Assembly: GCA_947631015.1 (NCBI GenBank)
Contig: CANRJS010000020.1
Location: forward strand, 1 to 39,501
DNA: 39,501 nt
Origin: an uncultured Clostridia bacterium
Lineage (GTDB): Bacteria; Bacillota; Clostridia; Oscillospirales; JAAYOS01
Reading direction: 5' to 3'
Shown: positions 11,131-31,315 of the stretch, piece by piece
How the letters are laid out: every line of letters starts with the position of its first letter
Numbering within the stretch: position 1 is the stretch's first letter
Notes under the pieces: generated by a model
What the model was told of the DNA's origin: nothing
What the model saw: the letters and a program-made list of their open reading frames with translations, nothing else
Databases searched by the model: none
Made by a program: the position numbers and the translations under genes

Positions 11131-11185
11131 GATTTTATTTGTGGGCTTTTTACCCGCGCCGCACTAAAATGTGCTCGAAGTTGGA

Positions 11186-11503
11186 CAATATTCGCGAAGC
11201 GAATATTGCTAGCGAGGGCTGTAAAGTGTCGGATGAGGAAAAGGTGCGCGCCCTCGCGGTTCGCAGCGGTTAAATTCGGCGCGGAGCGCCGAATTTGCGC
11301 AGGACGATTCCCTACCGTGTTCGGCTTTGCCCGCAAAGCGGGCAAAACTCACGAGGGCCGAATATGTTGTTTTGCGGAATATGTCGGCGCCCTCGTGTTC
11401 CGCACGAGCATTTCAATCAAAGGAGTCCCCAAACGGCGTGAAACGCCGCTTGGGGAAAGTATTTCGATTGGGAGGGTTCCCAAACGGTCTGCTGACCGTT
11501 TGG
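11186..11503. repeat. Modular palindromic repeat block
   Basis: No gene is supported in the 457-bp gap 11078-11534. After the terminator it holds: dyad CAATATTCGC-gaa-complement (11186-11208); a stretch through 11271 that recurs inverted at 14461-14546; a CACGAGGGC/GCCCTCGTG dyad (about 11350-11399); and two constant leaders (from 11406 and about 11463), each followed by a hairpin with a different stem (11427-11455 and 11480-11503). The last hairpin may serve as the rnhA terminator. Confidence 0.75.
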
Positions 11504-14361: not shown

Positions 14362-14890
14362 GCAATTCCCACGCGGTCAGCGACCGCGTGGGAGCCCTTC
14401 CGATTAAATGTGCTCGGCGGAAATGAATTCCGCCTGCGCGATGTTGCCTGCGGCAACATCAACCGCTGCGAACCGCGAGGGCGCGAACCAATTCCTCATC
14501 CGACATTTTACAGCCCTCGCTAGCAATATTCGCTTTGCGAATATTGCACAACATTGAGCTAATTAGAATGCGGAGCCGCCTTCGGCGGAAAATCGACGCA
14601 CGCTCCACGCAGTACAAAGTCGGGACGTCGGCGCGAAGCGCCGAGGTCTGATGCGCCCGGTAGAGGGTGTGGCGCGGTATGAGTTCGCGGGCGCATTGTA
14701 CACGCCGCCGAAATTTACGAATTGAACTTTATTTCGCCGCCTGTCTATGACAGGCGGCGAAACTCTGCGAGGCTTTTCTGGACGTCGGCGCGGAGCGCCG
14801 AATTTGCGCAGCCGAAATTCATTTCCGGCGAGCATTTAAATTAAAGGGGTCCCCCAAACGGCGCTCTGCGCCGTTTGGGGATTGGGCGAA
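14362..14890. repeat. Modular palindromic repeat cluster in a gene-free gap
   Basis: The 700-bp stretch 14263-14965 holds no credible gene. It contains a leader plus CCCACGCGGTC hairpin on the minus strand (14362-14437; inverted match at 30286-30361); a block at 14461-14546 matching 11186-11271 inverted; a block at 14619-14776 matching 30071-30212 inverted, with the module GATGCGCCCGG...GGGCGCATT; and another leader plus hairpin (14830-14880) with a different stem. Short reading frames across it are by-products of the repeats. Confidence 0.8.
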
Positions 14891-19369: not shown

Positions 19370-19447
19370 AACTTTTTTCGGCCTCTAATCCAACATTTCA
19401 CCAAAGTTGCAAAAAATCACTTCTATTACACTTATGTTACAAATCGG

Positions 19448-19474
19448 CTTCCCCCCTTGCAATAAGGGGGGAAG
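19448..19474. promoter_or_regulatory. Perfect inverted repeat overlapping the S-layer promoter
   Basis: Arms CTTCCCCCCTT (19448-19458) and AAGGGGGGAAG (19464-19474) around GCAAT. It covers the -35 hexamer and part of the spacer. No T-run follows, so an operator is more likely than a holB terminator, though either is possible. Confidence 0.5.
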
Positions 19475-19485
19475 TGGTGTATTAT
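19457..19485 (+). promoter_or_regulatory. Promoter of the first S-layer gene
   Basis: TTGCAA (19457-19462) and TATTAT (19480-19485) with a 17-bp spacer. The -10 ends 9 bp before the block shared with the second S-layer gene begins (19495), so the promoter is outside any segment exchanged between the copies. The leader is about 50 nt. Confidence 0.7.
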
Positions 19486-19494
19486 CCGAATTGT

Positions 19495-19771
19495 GGCAGG
19501 AGTGTCATGCCAAAAACACCAAACAGGAGGAAAAGAACAAATGAAGAACCTGAAGAAAGTTCTGTCCCTGGCTCTTGCGTTTGCGATGGTGCTGGGTCTG
19601 TGCATCGGGGCAATGGCCGCCGATACCAAGACTCAGAACGTCACAACGCTCAAGGACTGGGCAGACGTAACCAACAAGGACGCGGCACAGCTTCTGAACG
19701 CGTTCAACATCATGCAGGGCGACGGCAACGGCAATTTCCGTCCGGCCGACCCGGTCACCCGTGCAGAGGCC
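19495..19771 (+). repeat. Outer inverted repeat, left copy (S-layer 5' block)
   Basis: Matches 25217-25493 on the opposite strand over 277 bp with one difference (19724, G against A). It covers the leader from GGCAGGAGTGTCATGCC, the ribosome site, signal peptide and most of the first SLH repeat. Perfect identity runs 229 bp (19495-19723). Confidence 0.97.
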
Positions 19772-22243
19772 GCGAAGATGATTGCTGTCGCTCTTTGGGG
19801 CGGCGCGGATCTTTCGGCCAACTTTACCGAAGTGGGCGATGTCTTTGCCGATGTTAAGAGCACCGACTGGTTTGCCGGCTATGTAAACTACGCCGCGACC
19901 ATCGGCATCGTCGCCGGCCGCAACGCCACTACCTTCGACCCGCAGGGCAACGTCACCGGCTACGAGCTTCTCAAGATGACCCTTACCGCTCTCGGCTATG
20001 ACCAGGATGATGAGGGTCTTGTCGGCGCCAACTGGAAGATCAGGACCATGGCTCTTGCTATGGGCAGCAACGGTCTTGCCGACCTCACCAAGGACGTCAA
20101 GGTCACTAGCTGGGACGCTCCGCTCAACCGCGACAACACCGCGAAGGTTGTTGCGAACATGATCAATCGCACTATCGTCAAGTACGACCGTGACGGCTAC
20201 ATTGATGAGACCAGCACGAAGACCTTTGGCGTTCAGTACCTCAAGCTTGAGGAAGTTCCCGGTATTCTTGTTGCTAACTCCTACGCTGCTATGCCTAAGA
20301 ATCAGTACAAGAACTCTGAGACTGAGACCGTTACCGGCAACTTCGAGGTCAGCGATCCGGATCATTACAACTCCGTCCTTCTGCCGATAGTGGATGGCAA
20401 GTACGGCACGCCGATAGATGTCAACACCACCAGCGGCCTGTATGACCTCGGCTCTTACGCTACCGCTTACAAGAACAACAAGACCCCGATTTCTGTTGCT
20501 ATCACCCCCGCTACCGTTGTTACCAATCCTTACGCCGGCACGGACTCGTCCACGGCTCTTACTATTGGTTCCAACACCAGCACGGCTTACACCGCTGTTA
20601 CCAAGCTCGACACTGACGGCAACGGAAAGACCAACGTTACCATAACCGTGAACTATGCTGCCGCTATCTCGGATGTCAAGGCTGTCATAGAGAGCGAGAC
20701 TTGGGGCACCGTGTACCAGACCGGCAACGTTGCTTGGCGTGACGCTTATGAGGACGCCACCACGCTTCCGCAGAGCATCAAGGCTATTAAGTTTGTTACC
20801 GGCGCTGCTGCCGCTAAGGACGACAAGGTTCTTACGGTTGAGAGCACTAATGCAAGCAAGAAGACCGTCACTCTGGGCGCTGCTCTTGAGACCGTCGAGG
20901 GCACCAACACCCGTATCAACGACACCGACTACTACATTGACGGTGTCAAGTATACCAACAAGGTTGCGTCCAGCTCGAATGTTACTCTCGGATTCGGCGC
21001 TACCGGTGTCTTCTACACTTATCCGGGCTCGACCAATATAGTCACTGCTAAGATAAGCGGCGGCGCAGAGACCAGCGTTGCACTTCTCTATGATGCCGGA
21101 TACACCGCAGAGAGCGGCACGAGCGCTATGGGCGGCGGCACGAACGCTGCTGTTATGACTGTTGCGGCTATCCTGCCGGACGGCACCAAGGGCACCTACA
21201 CCGTTACCCAGTATGGTACCGGTGAGCAGGCCATAAAGCTCAACAAAAAGGACAAGATTAATGAAGTCATTGGCGTGAACGGCGACCTCAAGAACCTTAG
21301 GGAGCATGACGACAACGGCGCGCTGGCCAACACCAATGAGGCCAACTATCTTGTTGAGTACTATCTTGACAAAGATGGCAACATGATAATCACTGCGGCC
21401 TGCAAACTCGACGGGACCGGCATTGTCAACCAGGAGGTTAAGACCACTACCACGAGCGTTTCGGTTGGTAATACCAGCAAGTTTATCACTTCTGAGACCG
21501 TCACCTTCGTCCAGACTTCGACGAACACCGCGTATACCGCCGAAGATTGGACCGTCTACGTTGGCAGAACCGTCAGCTACACCGTAAAGGCGGGCGGCAA
21601 GGTTGATATCGTTCTCGGCGCCTACAATGGCATTGCCGATGCGGCCATTAAGTATGCCACCGTCGAGGCGAAGGACCTTGTAGCCGCTACCGGCGTGACC
21701 GAGGACTTCTACTATGTTATCGCTGACCACGGCCAGATTAGCGCTGACTATGATGAGTTTGTCGTATTTGATGCCAGCGCGGGCAAGGTCATCACCATCA
21801 ACGTTGCTCACTCCAGCGCGAGCGGCATAGATGAGGGCGAGTTCTATACCAAGTATGACGGCAGCACGCTTACCGTAGAAAAGTTCTTTAACACCGATAA
21901 CGATATCAAGGGTTATGTCACCAACTTCGCCAACGACATAGTAGTTGTCTCTGGCTTTGGTAAAGAGAACAGCGGCGAGTATCCGTTCGATATCAAGGGC
22001 GCTTATGTTGTCAACGACAAGACCAAGTTCTTTGTTATCGGCGATGAGGAGACCAGCGCGAAGATAACTGCTGCTGACGTGGCAGTTCAGGGTCCGACCA
22101 CCGAGCCGGCCAAGAGCGCTGATGGTACCAAGCTCTCGACTCCGTATCAGGCGATCGTAGTTGTTGACGGCGGCGTTGCTACTACTGTTATCCTCTTCGC
22201 GGAGGAGCAGGCGCTTGAGACCACAATCTCCACCGGCCGCTAA
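19541..22243 (+). CDS. SLH-domain S-layer protein, copy A (promoter-proximal)
   Basis: 900-residue secreted surface protein. Signal peptide 1-26 (MKNLKKVLSLALAFAMV, cleavage AMA|AD). Three SLH repeats: about 36-84 (FRPADPVTRAEAAKM), 101-153 (FDPQGNVTGYELLKM) and a weaker one near 165-208. SLH repeats bind pyruvylated wall polysaccharide. The remainder is Thr/Ala/Val-rich, beta-type, with no catalytic motif, and fits a structural lattice protein. AGGAGG lies 10 nt before the ATG; the leader has a good promoter. Codons differ from neighbours: AUC/AUU are common while other genes here favour AUA, as expected for a very highly expressed gene. Paralogous with the convergent gene at 22760-25447 along its whole length. 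Confidence 0.93.
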   Translation: MKNLKKVLSLALAFAMVLGLCIGAMAADTKTQNVTTLKDWADVTNKDAAQLLNAFNIMQGDGNGNFRPADPVTRAEAAKMIAVALWGGADLSANFTEVGDVFADVKSTDWFAGYVNYAATIGIVAGRNATTFDPQGNVTGYELLKMTLTALGYDQDDEGLVGANWKIRTMALAMGSNGLADLTKDVKVTSWDAPLNRDNTAKVVANMINRTIVKYDRDGYIDETSTKTFGVQYLKLEEVPGILVANSYAAMPKNQYKNSETETVTGNFEVSDPDHYNSVLLPIVDGKYGTPIDVNTTSGLYDLGSYATAYKNNKTPISVAITPATVVTNPYAGTDSSTALTIGSNTSTAYTAVTKLDTDGNGKTNVTITVNYAAAISDVKAVIESETWGTVYQTGNVAWRDAYEDATTLPQSIKAIKFVTGAAAAKDDKVLTVESTNASKKTVTLGAALETVEGTNTRINDTDYYIDGVKYTNKVASSSNVTLGFGATGVFYTYPGSTNIVTAKISGGAETSVALLYDAGYTAESGTSAMGGGTNAAVMTVAAILPDGTKGTYTVTQYGTGEQAIKLNKKDKINEVIGVNGDLKNLREHDDNGALANTNEANYLVEYYLDKDGNMIITAACKLDGTGIVNQEVKTTTTSVSVGNTSKFITSETVTFVQTSTNTAYTAEDWTVYVGRTVSYTVKAGGKVDIVLGAYNGIADAAIKYATVEAKDLVAATGVTEDFYYVIADHGQISADYDEFVVFDASAGKVITINVAHSSASGIDEGEFYTKYDGSTLTVEKFFNTDNDIKGYVTNFANDIVVVSGFGKENSGEYPFDIKGAYVVNDKTKFFVIGDEETSAKITAADVAVQGPTTEPAKSADGTKLSTPYQAIVVVDGGVATTVILFAEEQALETTISTGR

Positions 22244-22254
22244 GTCCCCACAGC

Positions 22255-22299
22255 AACACACACGTTAAAACGCTTTGGCATGGCGTGAAAACCTGCAAA
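22255..22299 (+). repeat. Inner inverted repeat, left copy
   Basis: 45 bp identical to 22703-22747 on the other strand, starting AACACACACGTTAAAACG. It lies just after the stop codon of copy A and extends the homology of the two genes past their ends. Confidence 0.93.
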
Positions 22300-22300
22300 G

Positions 22301-22335
22301 AAGCCGCCTCGGGCATACTGCCCGAGGCGGCTTTT
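22301..22335 (+). terminator. Terminator of S-layer copy A
   Basis: Perfect 15-bp arms AAGCCGCCTCGGGCA and complement around TAC, ending in TTTT. Confidence 0.85.
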
Positions 22336-22363
22336 CGCGCTGTTCGCGGGAAATCGCGCGATT

Positions 22364-22442: not shown

Positions 22443-22598
22443 CTCCGCGCTGTGCTGTGCCGGGACGCGCGGGCGGGGTGCGCGCCGCAACGGCGGCGCG
22501 CACGGCGGCGCGGCGGTGACGAGGCCGGGCGCGGAGCCGAAAGCTCGCGGGTGCGGCGCAGGTTCGCGCGGTGCCGAGAGCCGCATCCGCCGCACCGC

Positions 22599-22638
22599 CG
22601 CCTAGGGCGCGCTCGCGGCCGCGAGCGCGCCCTAGGCG
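22599..22638. repeat. 40-bp perfect palindrome
   Basis: Two 20-nt halves meet at GCGG|CCGC with no loop; each half contains CCTAGG and GCGCGC. It lies about 120 bp from the symmetry axis of the S-layer locus. A cruciform or transcription-blocking structure is possible. Confidence 0.9.
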
Positions 22639-22667
22639 CACCCCGCTTCCCCCGCCGCAAACGAAAC

Positions 22668-22695
22668 CGCCCCCGAGCCGAAAGGCTCGGGGGCG
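22668..22695 (-). terminator. Probable terminator of S-layer copy B
   Basis: Perfect 12-bp arms (CGCCCCCGAGCC and complement) around a GAAA loop. The tail on the minus strand is only moderately T-rich (GGTTTCGTTT). Confidence 0.6.
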
Positions 22696-22702
22696 ATCCT
22701 CA

Positions 22703-22747
22703 TTTGCAGGTTTTCACGCCATGCCAAAGCGTTTTAACGTGTGTGTT
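22703..22747 (-). repeat. Inner inverted repeat, right copy
   Basis: Exact 45-bp inverted counterpart of 22255-22299, just past the stop of copy B. Confidence 0.93.
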
Positions 22748-22759
22748 ACTGTGTGGGAC

Positions 22760-25447
22760 TTACTCGGCTGCCGGAACCTGCTCCTCCGCGAAGAGGATAA
22801 CGGTGGTAACAACACCCTTATCAACCTCGACAATCGCCTGATACGGAATAGTAGTTTCGCTCTTGGGCTCGCTAGTCGGACCCTGAATAGCAACGTCAGC
22901 CGCAGTTATCTTCTCGCTAGTCTCTTCGTCGCCGATGACGAAGTACTTGGTCTCGTCGTTGACAACGTAAGCCTTGTTCTCAAGGGCATACTCGTCACCA
23001 GTCGATGTCTTTGCAAAAGACGAAATAACAATGATGTTATTGGCGAAGCTGGAGACATAGCCCTTGGGAGCGCCAGCAAAGGTTATCTCATCCGAGAAGT
23101 TGTTGTTGGCGAATGTGGTATAGAACTTGCCCTCTGCCGGCTTGTTCGACGCACCGGTCGCCACATTTACGGTCTTGACCTCGTTGGCGCTCGCGTCAAA
23201 GACGACATACTCGTCATAGAGGGGCGAAACCTGGCCGTGTGCGGCAATGATGTAGTAGAAGTCATTGCTCTTACCAGAGTCAGGAACAAGGGAATTGGAC
23301 TTGACAACCGCGTACTTAACAGCAGTATCCTTTATGCCGTTGTAGTCGCCGAGAACGACTGTAGCTGTGTTATTCTGGGCGATGCTGTAATTGACAGTCC
23401 TTCCGACGTAGGCAGTCCAATCCTCAGAGGTGTTAGTGCCGTTAACAGAAGTCTGAATGAAGGTGACAGTCTCCGGGGTGATCAGCTTGCTCGCACCACC
23501 AACCAAAACGCTCGTGGTGCTGGTCGTGATATTGGTCGCAGCGGTAGTGCTGCCGATCGTTCCGCCAGTCGTGCAAAGCTCGGTGATTATCATATTACCG
23601 TTTTCGTCAAGATAATAGTTGACGAGGTAGTTGTTGTCTCCTCCAGTAGCGCCAGTTATGCCAACGGTTACCCAAGAGTTAGTGTTCAGCCCGTTCAGTG
23701 AATTGCCCGAGCCAAAGACATTGATAATACCGTCATTGCTATTGAGGTCGGTGGTTCCGAACTTGGTAGCAGTGTAAGTACCCTTGGTGCCGTCCGACAG
23801 GATAGCCGCAACGGTGACAACCGGCTTGGTGGCAGTGCCGCCGATAGCAGTGCTTCCGCCGCCCGGGGTCAAACCTGCGTCATAGAGAAGCGCAACGCTA
23901 GTCTGTGCACCGCCGCTTATCGTAGCAGTGACAATTTCGGTCGTGCCCGGATAGGTGTAGAAGACTCCGCTGACGCCGAACCCGGAAAGGTCAACGTTCG
24001 ACCCGGTTTTGTCGGTATACTCAGTGCCGTCAATGTAGTACTTGGGAGCGTTAATGCGGGTGTTTGTGCCCTCAACGGTCTCCAGAGCAGCGCCGATGAC
24101 AACCTTGGTCGCAGGAGTAGTAGACGAAATCAGCGTGCTCTCAACCGTAACGACCTTATCGTCCTTCGCGGCAGTAGCGCCAGTGACAAACTTGATTGCC
24201 TTGAAGCTGTTCGGAAGCGTAGCCGCATCCTCGTAAGCGTCACGCCATGCAACGGAGCCAGTCTGGTAAACGGTGCCCCAAGTCTCGCTCTCCACAACGG
24301 CCTTGACGTCAGACAGCGTCGAGTAATGGACGGTTATGGTGAGGTCGGTCTTACCGTTCGCATTGGTATCGAGCTTGACGGCGGAGGTGTACTTGGCGCC
24401 GCTTTCTGTACCAATGGTAAGTGCCTTAGCGCCCGTGTCCGTACCCGCATAGGGGTTAGTCACAACGGCAGCGGGGGTTATGGCAACGGAAATGACGGTA
24501 TCGCCCTTCTTGTAGGCGACAGCCTTGGAGCCGAGGTCATACAGACCGCTGGTGGTGTTGACGTCGATCGCATTGCCATACTTGTTGTCCACTATCGGCA
24601 GAAGGACGGAGTTGAAATGCGCCGGATCGCTGACCTCGTAGTTGCCCGTAGGAGCAGCCGTACCGGTAGCGGCATTATAGTACTGATCCTTAGGCATGGT
24701 AGCATAGGCGTTAGCCACAAGGATGCCCTCGACCTTTTCGAGCTTGAGGTACATCTCGCCAAAGGTCGGAATGGGAGCAGTAGCGGTGCTTTCAATGACG
24801 TAGCCGTCACGGTCATACTTGACGGTGGTGGCGGTTATCATGTTAGCGATGACCTGCGCGGTGTCCTCACGGTTGATCGGGAGATTCCAGTTGGCGATAT
24901 CAACGCCCTCGGTCAGGTCGTTGCCCGTGGCGAGGATCATCGTCTTGGTCTGCCAACCGGCACCGACGAGGCCCTCGTCCTCCTGCCTGTAGCCGAGAGC
25001 AGTGAGGGTCATCTTGAGCAGCTCGTAACCGGTGACGTTGCCCTGCGGGTCGAAGGTGGTGGCGTTGCGGCCCGCAACGAGCTCGGAAGTCGCAGCGTAC
25101 TTCACGTAGCCGGCAAACCAGTCGGTGCTATTAATGTCGGTGAAGGTAGTGGTGCCGTCCTTGAAGAGATCCTTGAGATCATCGCCGCCCCAAAGAGCGA
25201 CAGAGATCATCTTGGTGGCCTCTGCACGGGTGACCGGGTCGGCCGGACGGAAATTGCCGTTGCTGTCGCCCTGCATGATGTTGAACGCGTTCAGAAGCTG
25301 TGCCGCGTCCTTGTTGGTTACGTCTGCCCAGTCCTTGAGCGTTGTGACGTTCTGAGTCTTGGTATCGGCGGCCATTGCCCCGATGCACAGACCCAGCACC
25401 ATCGCAAACGCAAGAGCCAGGGACAGAACTTTCTTCAGGTTCTTCAT
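22760..25447 (-). CDS. SLH-domain S-layer protein, copy B (probably silent here)
   Basis: 895-residue paralogue of the S-layer protein at 19541-22243, on the opposite strand and tail to tail with it. Signal peptide and first SLH repeat are almost identical to copy A; from about residue 78 the sequences drift apart, with many substitutions and several indels in the middle, while segments such as GLYDLGS, SDVKAV(V/I)ESETWGTVYQTG, ALETVEGTNTRIN and the C-terminal AEEQ remain shared. The same ribosome site precedes the ATG. The 208 bp upstream show no sigma-A promoter, only the 3' end of the integrase gene, so this copy is probably unexpressed or weakly transcribed by read-through. The reading frame is intact, which argues that it is used at times. 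Confidence 0.93.
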   Translation of the reverse strand: MKNLKKVLSLALAFAMVLGLCIGAMAADTKTQNVTTLKDWADVTNKDAAQLLNAFNIMQGDSNGNFRPADPVTRAEATKMISVALWGGDDLKDLFKDGTTTFTDINSTDWFAGYVKYAATSELVAGRNATTFDPQGNVTGYELLKMTLTALGYRQEDEGLVGAGWQTKTMILATGNDLTEGVDIANWNLPINREDTAQVIANMITATTVKYDRDGYVIESTATAPIPTFGEMYLKLEKVEGILVANAYATMPKDQYYNAATGTAAPTGNYEVSDPAHFNSVLLPIVDNKYGNAIDVNTTSGLYDLGSKAVAYKKGDTVISVAITPAAVVTNPYAGTDTGAKALTIGTESGAKYTSAVKLDTNANGKTDLTITVHYSTLSDVKAVVESETWGTVYQTGSVAWRDAYEDAATLPNSFKAIKFVTGATAAKDDKVVTVESTLISSTTPATKVVIGAALETVEGTNTRINAPKYYIDGTEYTDKTGSNVDLSGFGVSGVFYTYPGTTEIVTATISGGAQTSVALLYDAGLTPGGGSTAIGGTATKPVVTVAAILSDGTKGTYTATKFGTTDLNSNDGIINVFGSGNSLNGLNTNSWVTVGITGATGGDNNYLVNYYLDENGNMIITELCTTGGTIGSTTAATNITTSTTSVLVGGASKLITPETVTFIQTSVNGTNTSEDWTAYVGRTVNYSIAQNNTATVVLGDYNGIKDTAVKYAVVKSNSLVPDSGKSNDFYYIIAAHGQVSPLYDEYVVFDASANEVKTVNVATGASNKPAEGKFYTTFANNNFSDEITFAGAPKGYVSSFANNIIVISSFAKTSTGDEYALENKAYVVNDETKYFVIGDEETSEKITAADVAIQGPTSEPKSETTIPYQAIVEVDKGVVTTVILFAEEQVPAAE

Positions 25448-25493
25448 TTGTTCTTTTCCTCCTGTTTGGTGTTTTTGGCATGACACTCCTGCC
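25217..25493 (-). repeat. Outer inverted repeat, right copy (S-layer 5' block)
   Basis: Inverted counterpart of 19495-19771, with one mismatch in 277 bp. Upstream of 25493 the two loci share nothing: the promoter of copy A is replaced by GC-rich sequence next to the integrase gene. Confidence 0.97.
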
Positions 25494-25655
25494 GTGTCCT
25501 GCAAAAAATCATTCAGGAGGGACTTTCCGCCCGTTTCGCGCGCTGCCCGTCGCGCCCGGGGGACGAAACTACAGCCGCCCGCCGTGCGTCCTCGCCCCGG
25601 AGCCGCTGAAACGCCGCCGCCGCGCGGGTTTCGCGCCCTGCCGCATACAGCGACG

Positions 25656-26840
25656 TTACAGCGACGCCGCCTGTGACGACCCGTACAGCAGCTCCGCGAG
25701 CCGGTCGACACACGCGCGCTTCTGACCCGGCAGCGAGTGCGTGTAGATGTTGAGCGTCATCTGCGTGTCCGAGTGGCCGAGCAGCTCGCTCAGGCTCTTG
25801 ATGTCCAGCCCGCTTTCGACCCAGCGTGTCGCGAACGTGTGGCGGAGGCCGTGCAGAGTGACCGGCGGCAGACCCGCCTCGTCCTCGACCGAGCGGAGCA
25901 GGCGGCGGATGTCTGTCCCGTCCGACAGCGCGCCGGTGCTTGTGAGGAAGAGAAAACCGCGCTCGAGCCACGTTCCGTCCCACCGCGGCGACGCGCGCCA
26001 CCGTGCTGCCGACCGCCGTATCATCTCGGCGCGGCGGAGCATCGCCGCGCGCAGCAGCTCCGCCGTGAACGTGTCTATCGGGATGGTGCGGCGGCTCTGC
26101 CGCGTCTTCGGATCGCCCTCGCATATCGGCGCGCGCCCTGTCCCCGGCATGCGGACGCGCCCGACCGTCCGCCGCACGTGCAGCTCCTTCCGTTCGAGGT
26201 CGACGTCCTCGAGCCGCAGCCCCAGCGCCTCCCCTATCCGCAGACCGGTACGGAGCAGCAGCACCGGCACGGCGGCGAGCCATTGGCGCGGGAACCGGCT
26301 CATCGCCGCGAGCTCGAACCGCCGCTGTTCCTCCGGCGAGAAGACCAGCCGCTCGGGCTTGTCCGCCGGAGGCAGGACGAGCCGCACCGCCGGGTTCTTC
26401 TCGATGTAGCCGAGATCCGCCGCCTTTTGCAGCGAGGTCTGGAGGCGCGTCCGCAGATGCGAGACGGTCGAGCGTGCGAACCGGCCGAGCTCCCGCGCGA
26501 GGAAGCGCTGAAGCGCCTCCTCCCGGAGGAGATACAGCGGCGTCTCGCCGAGCGCCGGGACGATGTGGCCGTACAGCTCCGCGTGATACGCGGCGTAGGT
26601 TCGCGGACGCACCGTCGGCCGGACGTACACCTCGAGCCACTCCGAAAGCCACTCGCCGAGCGTCCGCGTGTCCGCCGGAGGCGGAGACGCCGCTGCGCTC
26701 CGCAGCAGCGCCGCCGCCTCCGTCCGGGTGTGTGAGTAGAGGTATCGCCGCCGGCCGTCCGGCGCGGTGAACTGCGCCGTCCACAGCCCGTCCCGGCGGC
26801 GATAGATGGAGCCCTCACCGTTTGCGCGTCTTTTTGTCAT
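25656..26840 (-). CDS. Integrase-type tyrosine recombinase beside the S-layer locus
   Basis: 394 residues, phage/ICE-like integrase architecture. N-terminal arm-binding domain (about 1-50, NGEGSIYRRRDGLWTAQF), SAM-like core-binding domain (about 60-150) and catalytic domain (165-385). All catalytic residues are present: Arg201 in RTGLRIGEAL, Lys245 in DPKTRQSRR, His330 and Arg333 in HGLRHTFATR, His356 in LLGHSDTQ and Tyr366 in NIYTHS. The ATG at 26840 has AGGAGGG 8 nt upstream. No excisionase, relaxase or phage gene is adjacent, so it is either a relic of a lost element or a resident enzyme. It reads toward S-layer copy B, 208 bp away, with no terminator seen between. A link to inversion of the S-layer genes is possible but unproven. 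Confidence 0.92.
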   Translation of the reverse strand: MTKRRANGEGSIYRRRDGLWTAQFTAPDGRRRYLYSHTRTEAAALLRSAAASPPPADTRTLGEWLSEWLEVYVRPTVRPRTYAAYHAELYGHIVPALGETPLYLLREEALQRFLARELGRFARSTVSHLRTRLQTSLQKAADLGYIEKNPAVRLVLPPADKPERLVFSPEEQRRFELAAMSRFPRQWLAAVPVLLLRTGLRIGEALGLRLEDVDLERKELHVRRTVGRVRMPGTGRAPICEGDPKTRQSRRTIPIDTFTAELLRAAMLRRAEMIRRSAARWRASPRWDGTWLERGFLFLTSTGALSDGTDIRRLLRSVEDEAGLPPVTLHGLRHTFATRWVESGLDIKSLSELLGHSDTQMTLNIYTHSLPGQKRACVDRLAELLYGSSQAASL

Positions 26841-26860: not shown

Positions 26861-27128
26861 TATAGCTGCCGGGGGGGCGGACCCATGGTGCTCCACGCGG
26901 GCGCTTTTCTGTTTGTCGTCGCCGGTTTGCGCCGGCAATACCGGCTCCTCCGCGCAGAAAATCATCCGAAAACCGCTCCGCGTGGAGTGCAGGCAGTTTC
27001 CGGCGGCGGAATTGCGTCCGGCGGGAAAAAGCCCGCCGGGAATACTGCCGTATTTCCAAGGGCTCCGGCGCCGCACGGGCCGGATTCGCCGTCGAAAACC
27101 ACTATGGGTTCGCCTCCCGGCAGCTATA
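26861..27128. mobile_element. Terminal-inverted-repeat element, copy 1 (MITE-like)
   Basis: 268 bp bounded by TATAGCTGCCGGG (26861-26873) and its complement (27116-27128); weaker pairing continues inward through ACCCAT and ATGGGT. No coding capacity is credible. Nearly the same sequence lies at 31042-31315. It occupies most of the gap 26841-27254. A target-site duplication is not obvious, so mobility is inferred. Confidence 0.65.
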
Positions 27129-30070: not shown

Positions 30071-30361
30071 AAAGCCTCGCAGAGTTCGCCGCCGAAGGCG
30101 GCGAATAATTTTAAATCCGTTTTTTCCGGCGGCAATGCGCCCGCGAACCCATACCGCATCCGACCATCTACCGGGCGCATCAGACCTCGACGCTCCGCGC
30201 CGACGTCCCGACATTCTGCGAATTGTCGGAGTCGAAAAAACACCTCTCGCGAAGCGTGCGTCGAAGACGGCAAAGCCGTTCCGCGCCGGCGGAATTCATT
30301 TTCGCCGAGCATTTCAATCGGAAGGGCTCCCACGCGGTCGCCGACCGCGTGGGAATTGCGC
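30071..30361. repeat. Modular palindromic repeats between hpt and ftsH
   Basis: The gap 29892-30384 carries no gene. 30071-30212 is an inverted match of 14619-14776, including the module GGGCGCAT...ATGCGCCC. 30286-30361 is an inverted match of 14362-14437, with the constant leader from GAGCATTT (30307) and a hairpin CCCACGCGGTC-gcc-complement (30329-30353). A further degenerate copy of the GATGCG module lies near 30000-30060. Confidence 0.78.
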
Positions 30362-31041: not shown

Positions 31042-31315
31042 ATAGCTGACGGGTGCGAACCCATGGTGCTCCACGCGGGCTTTTTTCGGCGCTTTTCTGT
31101 TTGTCGTCGCCGGTTTGCGTCAGCAAAACCGGCTCCTCCGCGCAGAAAATTATCCGAAAATAGCTCCGCGTAGAATGCAGGCAGTTTTCGACGGCGGATT
31201 TGCGCCCGTGCGGCGTCAAATCCCTTGGAAATACGGCAGTATTCCCGGCGGGCTTTCCCCCGCCGAACACAAATCCGCCGTCGAAAACCACTATGGGCTC
31301 GCACCCGTCAGCTAT
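31042..31315. mobile_element. Terminal-inverted-repeat element, copy 2 (MITE-like)
   Basis: 274 bp bounded by ATAGCTGACGGGTGCGA and its exact complement, then CCCAT-GTG with two mismatches. Internal blocks (CATGGTGCTCCACGCGGGC, CTTTTCTGTTTGTCGTCGCC, CGGCTCCTCCGCGCAGAAAA) recur in copy 1. A second nested pair, TTTTCGACGGCGGATTT and its complement, folds inside. It fills most of the tilS-hpt gap and starts 10 bp after the tilS stop. Confidence 0.7.

Follow-up and report, generated by a model that had tools for sequence, protein, structure and literature searches.

The window analysed here, a stretch of 39,501 nucleotides from an uncultured Clostridia bacterium of the gut, contains two complete S-layer genes that face one another, and a promoter was recognized in front of only one of them. 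This raises the question of how the second, intact gene could be expressed and why it is kept. The sequence-only reading had answered with an on/off switch, in which a fixed promoter lies outside an exchangeable cassette. Based on comparison with related genomes, the locus is probably an S-layer switch with a fixed promoter outside a 6.0-kb invertible segment, leading to alternation between copies A and B. The features of the locus are collected in Table 1.

Table 1. Features of the S-layer locus, in coordinates of the window.
Feature	Position	Strand	Evidence or remarks
12-mer TGCAAAAAATCA, 5' of the promoter	19408..19419	+	Matches a portion of the outer arm at B in reverse complement; weak, AT-rich
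Upstream promoter element TTACACTTATGTTACA, conserved	19426..19441	+	Same sequence in G001 and G004, a similar one in G003 and other families
Promoter TTGCAA-17-TATTAT	19457..19485	+	Hexamer scan, conservation, module search
Copy A edge of the exchangeable block: GGCAGGA, the proposed crossover of 7 nt, and inner arm GTGTCATGCCAAAAA	19495..19516	+	In three species this is the exact base where A/B homology starts
A arm of the 5' inverted repeat	19495..19812	+	318 nt at 98%, with no difference in the first 229 nt
slpA, next to the promoter; S-layer-like protein with SLH domain, 900 aa	19541..22243	+	Pfam SLH 5e-20
Inner inverted repeat after slpA stop	22246..22299	+	46-nt core 97.8-100% identical between species
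Terminator hairpin T1 (GCCGCCTCGGGC...)	22301..22336	+	Follows slpA here and the B copy in G004
Terminator hairpin T2 (CGCCCCCGAGCC...)	22668..22695	-	Follows slpB here and the A copy in G004
Inner inverted repeat after slpB stop	22703..22756	-	
slpB, SLH-domain S-layer-like protein, 895 aa, intact	22760..25447	-	Pfam SLH 2.9e-20; no promoter found
5' inverted repeat, copy B arm	25176..25493	-	
Core-like recombination site at copy B: TTTTTTGCAGGACAC-GGCAGGA-GTGTCATGCCAAAAA	25472..25508	-	13/15 arm positions complementary; conserved in three species
Tyrosine recombinase, 394 aa, candidate invertase	25656..26840	-	Pfam Phage_integrase 3.7e-25; same strand as slpB, stops ~160 bases short of the block

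The promoter and its place in the locus

The promoter proposed upstream of copy A was present as described, with TTGCAA at 19457-19462 and TATTAT at 19480-19485 separated by a spacer of 17 nucleotides; the 9-bp gap between the -10 hexamer and the beginning of A/B homology (GGCAGGA, from 19495) was also confirmed at 19486-19494. Transcription is predicted to start at approximately 19492-19493. The hexamer pair matches the consensus at nine of 12 positions, and a scan for such -35/-10 sites returned 10 in 8 kb compared with 3.0 +/- 1.6 in shuffled sequence. Being close to background, a hexamer match alone was rejected as proof of a promoter. Despite its weak hexamers the promoter is credible because it is conserved between species: the stretch from TTACACTTATGTTACA to TATTATCCGAATTGTGGCAGGAGTGTCATGCC, covering the -35 to beyond the -10, is identical in the relatives G001 and G004, while the more diverged G003 carries TTGCAA-17-TATCAT at the same place, the -35, the spacer length and the -10 being kept in changed surroundings. 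A 13-bp stem, GCTTCCCCCCTTGCAATAAGGGGGGAAGT, at 19447-19475 spans the -35, part of which falls in the loop. This hairpin is identical in G001 and G004 and absent in G003; for the latter reason, and having no T tract, it was rejected as a terminator or an essential part of the promoter, and is possibly an operator.

A longer module, TTACACTTATGTTACA-N15-TTGCAA-N17-TATTAT, recurs 5' of S-layer genes across the order, of which 394 genomes were searched and 20 loci read. Other families of the order carry TTAC..TTAC followed by TTGACG/TTGCAA-17-TAT(T/C/G)AT before their S-layer genes. The module pattern gave 15 matches in 370 kb of S-layer loci compared with ~0.1 in shuffles (3 matches in total in 30 shuffles of the whole set), and 11 of the 15 end 50-64 nt 5' of an S-layer start. 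Since the pattern was built after about eight of its upstream regions had been viewed, only the matches in G329, G258, G300, G389, G366, G213 and G101 are independent. For 11 genomes that carry more than one S-layer gene (from 2 to 6-7 copies), the module was found before exactly one copy and never before two, for example one of four in G089 and in G335, and one of 6 or 7 in G329. A stricter pattern, applied to nine whole genomes of ~3 Mb, yielded seven matches, five of which lie directly before an S-layer gene, one per genome. With a looser pattern nine matches were obtained in the window's own genome (G000), and the loose module is therefore not unique to S-layer genes there. No module match was found before an S-layer gene in G042 (seven copies), G366C45, G084, G052, G172 or G294.

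Upstream of copy B (25494-25655) the sequence-only reading saw no -10/-35 pair, and no sigma-70-like pair was detected there on the minus strand. None of the three species compared (G000, G001 and G004) has the module before B. The recombinase gene (26840-25656) points towards B and no site resembling a terminator separates the two, so weak read-through into B is possible. Simultaneous expression of A and B, with B transcribed by such read-through or from an unrecognised promoter, is nonetheless improbable, given the missing sigma-70-like pair and given that the module precedes B in none of the three species and stands before a single copy in each multi-copy genome in which it occurs. From these comparisons, the copy linked to the promoter would be the only one expressed.

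Several further repeats were observed in the window. The 46-nt inner repeat that follows both stop codons may serve as a second point of exchange, or may belong to a terminator that acts in both directions. Approximately 190 bp in the middle of the spacer (about 22467-22655) are inverted between G000 and G001, the flanking terminators not being so, which suggests that further small inversions may occur. Dispersed repeats of 80-130 bp in both orientations (26900-27020, 31088-31208, 14616-14698, 30133-30215, 11156-11282 and 14450-14576) are a family of repeat elements in this genome. A second tyrosine recombinase gene, of the Phage_int_SAM_1 type (XerC/D-like), is located at 59-982 adjoining a dnaA-like gene.

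Reversal of the segment and the candidate crossover site

The relatives G001 and G004 are rabbit-gut metagenome assemblies. In G000, G001 and G004 the flanks of the locus are collinear, with the upstream gene and the promoter on one side and the recombinase gene on the other. Between these flanks, terminator T1 lies behind copy A in G000 and G001 and behind copy B in G004, and the converse is true of T2. A tag, CACTGAATC, follows the stop codon of B in G001 and that of A in G004; as it lies outside the 46-nt inner repeat, a flip of the spacer alone does not explain its position. A tree constructed from residues 110-230 grouped G000_B with G004_A (SH-aLRT 99.8, bootstrap 98), so the gene type that the promoter faces is not the same in these two species. 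C-terminal residues were dropped as markers of gene identity because they were too weak. Terminators, tag and tree together indicate that a segment from about codon 110 to the terminators was reversed as a unit between G000 and G004. The segment is thus seen in both orientations, although between species (G000/G001 versus G004); a search of viral contigs for orientation variants within a species gave none, and one of genome contigs returned only G001 and G004.

Two explanations would account for this pattern with no inversion having taken place. In one, gene conversion would copy the cassette of B, a silent donor, into the expression site. The 5' part of the genes is homogenised within species, and in the variable region the G000 paralogues are 62% alike compared with ~37-48% for copies of different species, both of which would fit copying of this kind. 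We regard it as hardly probable, as terminators and post-stop tags, which lie beyond the coding sequence, were swapped reciprocally in G004, a result predicted by inversion and not by one-way conversion. The other is that the G004 order is an assembly artefact, a concern with metagenome assemblies since inverted repeats are hard to resolve from short reads. The first identical run between the two arms measures 229 bases in G000, 482 in G001 and only 126 in G004, so an artefact is least likely in G004, where the run is within the reach of paired reads. Moreover, gene types and terminators move together, and an ambiguous population would itself point to inversion. An artefact is accordingly considered very unlikely. 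On these sequence comparisons, inversion would be the mechanism, a reading we hold with good confidence, and it would still be occurring within the strain.

The adjacent recombinase is a candidate for the enzyme. Its Phage_integrase domain occupies residues 187-370 and contains the motifs HGLRH, LGH and IYTH, and the nearest solved structures are the Int proteins 6emy/6emz, which we take to be the Int of Tn1549. Among 98 genomes, orthologues (96-97% identical) were found only in G001 and G004, at the same place. The codon differences are 46 synonymous and 14 non-synonymous, and their mostly synonymous nature suggests that the recombinase is maintained by selection.

The inverted repeat at the B edge, with its 13 of 15 complementary positions, was reached by none of 20,000 shuffles. 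In each of three species A/B homology begins at the first base of GGCAGGA, as would be expected after strand exchange within an overlap of 7 nt. At the A edge the seven nucleotides and the inner arm are the same as at B; the outer arm, TATTATCCGAATTGT, overlaps the promoter and is off the arm consensus. The best inverted repeat there reaches 8 of 15, unlike a symmetrical invertase substrate, and this non-matching outer arm is the main weakness of the recombinase-site reading. The 12-mer TGCAAAAAATCA is a possible accessory site of the recombinase.

The same switch could instead depend on RecA and work through homologous recombination between the 5' repeats, in which case the neighbouring recombinase would be unrelated or would only assist. 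The identical runs of all three species are long enough for this, S-layer copies are homogenised within species, and several opposed pairs of the order have no integrase nearby. Three points speak against it: the integrase keeps its position between species and differs there largely by synonymous changes, integrases also adjoin the 5' ends of S-layer genes in genera that are unrelated, and the homology edge lies at the centre of a core-like inverted repeat. RecA-driven inversion is for these reasons viewed as rather unlikely, and catalysis by the adjacent recombinase is the reading that we somewhat favour. Homologous exchange probably also acts on the locus, since within each species the copies stay identical over their first 126-482 bases.

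Opposed S-layer genes and integrases across the order

Opposed S-layer genes with 5' inverted repeats of ~570-980 bases (85-93%) were identified in G042, G089 (two loci), G061, G329, G366 (two loci), G160, G258 and G300. An integrase of the recombinase's family adjoins an S-layer 5' end in G042, G089, G061, G160, G389 and G101, and also in G084 and G052. Among ~16 loci that were picked by their opposed S-layer genes, eight have an integrase within ~0.3 kb of an S-layer 5' end. In a tree these S-layer-adjacent integrases come from several lineages, and a single clade devoted to S-layer genes was rejected since the tree requires five or more changes of label, though the label was clustered. No integrase was found near the opposed S-layer pairs of G329, G335, G258 and G300, so a second route, by RecA or by a recombinase located elsewhere, is needed for some pairs.

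The 40-kb locus of G042 (L082-L083) comprises seven S-layer genes of mixed orientation with an integrase between a divergent pair, and is possibly a multi-way shuffling locus; no promoter module was recognised there. A small gene (~175-217 aa, e.g. MNKNFTIPAFAEPITNLPDTPTCEATELKRRF... or MSFSDHKITQFTHKITDLPDQPSLPANELKARF...) recurs between convergent S-layer genes at L082, L087 and L088. In G335 (L089) and G160 (L092) the homology of the unpromoted copies begins a few codons in, inside the signal-peptide codons, and these copies therefore appear to be without a start codon and ribosome-binding site. Judged by sequence, they look like silent cassettes that could be expressed only after recombination.

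A tentative view, to which we give slightly less than even weight, is that S-layer variation throughout the order would involve one fixed expression site per genome and one to six promoterless cassettes, with integrases repeatedly recruited from mobile-element families. In the window's genus the crossover would lie at the transcription start and the promoter would never move, and in some species the silent copies would lack even a start codon and ribosome-binding site. No report of S-layer inversion in this order was found in the literature searched, which mostly excluded subscription papers.

Comparison with known switches and the proposed mechanism

In Lactobacillus acidophilus, slpA and slpB are in opposite orientation and the promoter is outside the segment. 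One of these S-layer genes is active and the other silent, and they are interchanged by inversion of a chromosomal segment (Boot et al. 1996, Mol Microbiol 21:799, as described in PMC6176008). The locus resembles this system in having two complete opposed S-layer genes with common 5' ends, here both encoding Pfam SLH proteins, and a promoter that precedes just one copy and lies outside the exchanged block. It differs in the SLH-anchored proteins, in belonging to an uncultured clostridial lineage, in the adjacent tyrosine recombinase gene, in a core-like repeat exactly at the homology edge by the transcription start, where the crossover would be placed, and in the recurrence of 2-7 copies across the order.

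The sap locus of Campylobacter fetus contains several S-layer genes with a common conserved 5' region, only one of which faces the single promoter; the promoter is on the inverting piece and RecA is involved. Several S-layer genes and one promoter are features shared with the present locus, whose promoter in contrast is fixed outside the inverted repeat. The divergent pairs of G366C31 and G160, from the same order, are closer to the C. fetus layout. In the cwpV system of Clostridioides difficile, a gene-free element of 195 bp, bounded by 21-bp repeats, inverts and exerts its effect by way of a terminator; the recV gene is not linked to it, and RecV is XerC/D-like (PMC2784873). A clostridial surface protein, a tyrosine recombinase and a promoter outside the inverting DNA are common to both cases, whereas the segment in the window is 6.0 kb, holds both genes, and is accompanied by a recombinase nearest to Int entries rather than to XerC/D.

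In the proposed mechanism the promoter would remain fixed outside the segment 19495-25493, which holds the two convergent S-layer genes, each with its terminator, and inversion at the shared 5' edge would place either A or B behind it. The adjacent tyrosine recombinase would make the crossover at GGCAGGA, and homologous recombination would homogenise the first few hundred bases of both genes. The crossover edge would lie 2-3 nt past the point at which transcription is predicted to begin, so that inversion would exchange the entire transcript, with its leader and start codon, and leave the promoter in place. Of the earlier proposal, the fixed promoter with exchangeable cassettes is supported by the reversal in G004 and by the single module copy in 11 genomes; its on/off character is replaced by alternation between A and B, and the tyrosine recombinase gene and the core-like repeat at the crossover edge are additions to it.

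This reading explains the persistence of intact but promoterless S-layer genes, and it would supply a recombinase and a site that can be tested. The S-layer is the outermost surface that a phage, an antibody or the mucus of the host encounters, and the cell is probably able to swap which S-layer coat is worn. If this is true, uncultured gut Clostridia would have a switch of one promoter and many cassettes, and a surface that is variable by design.
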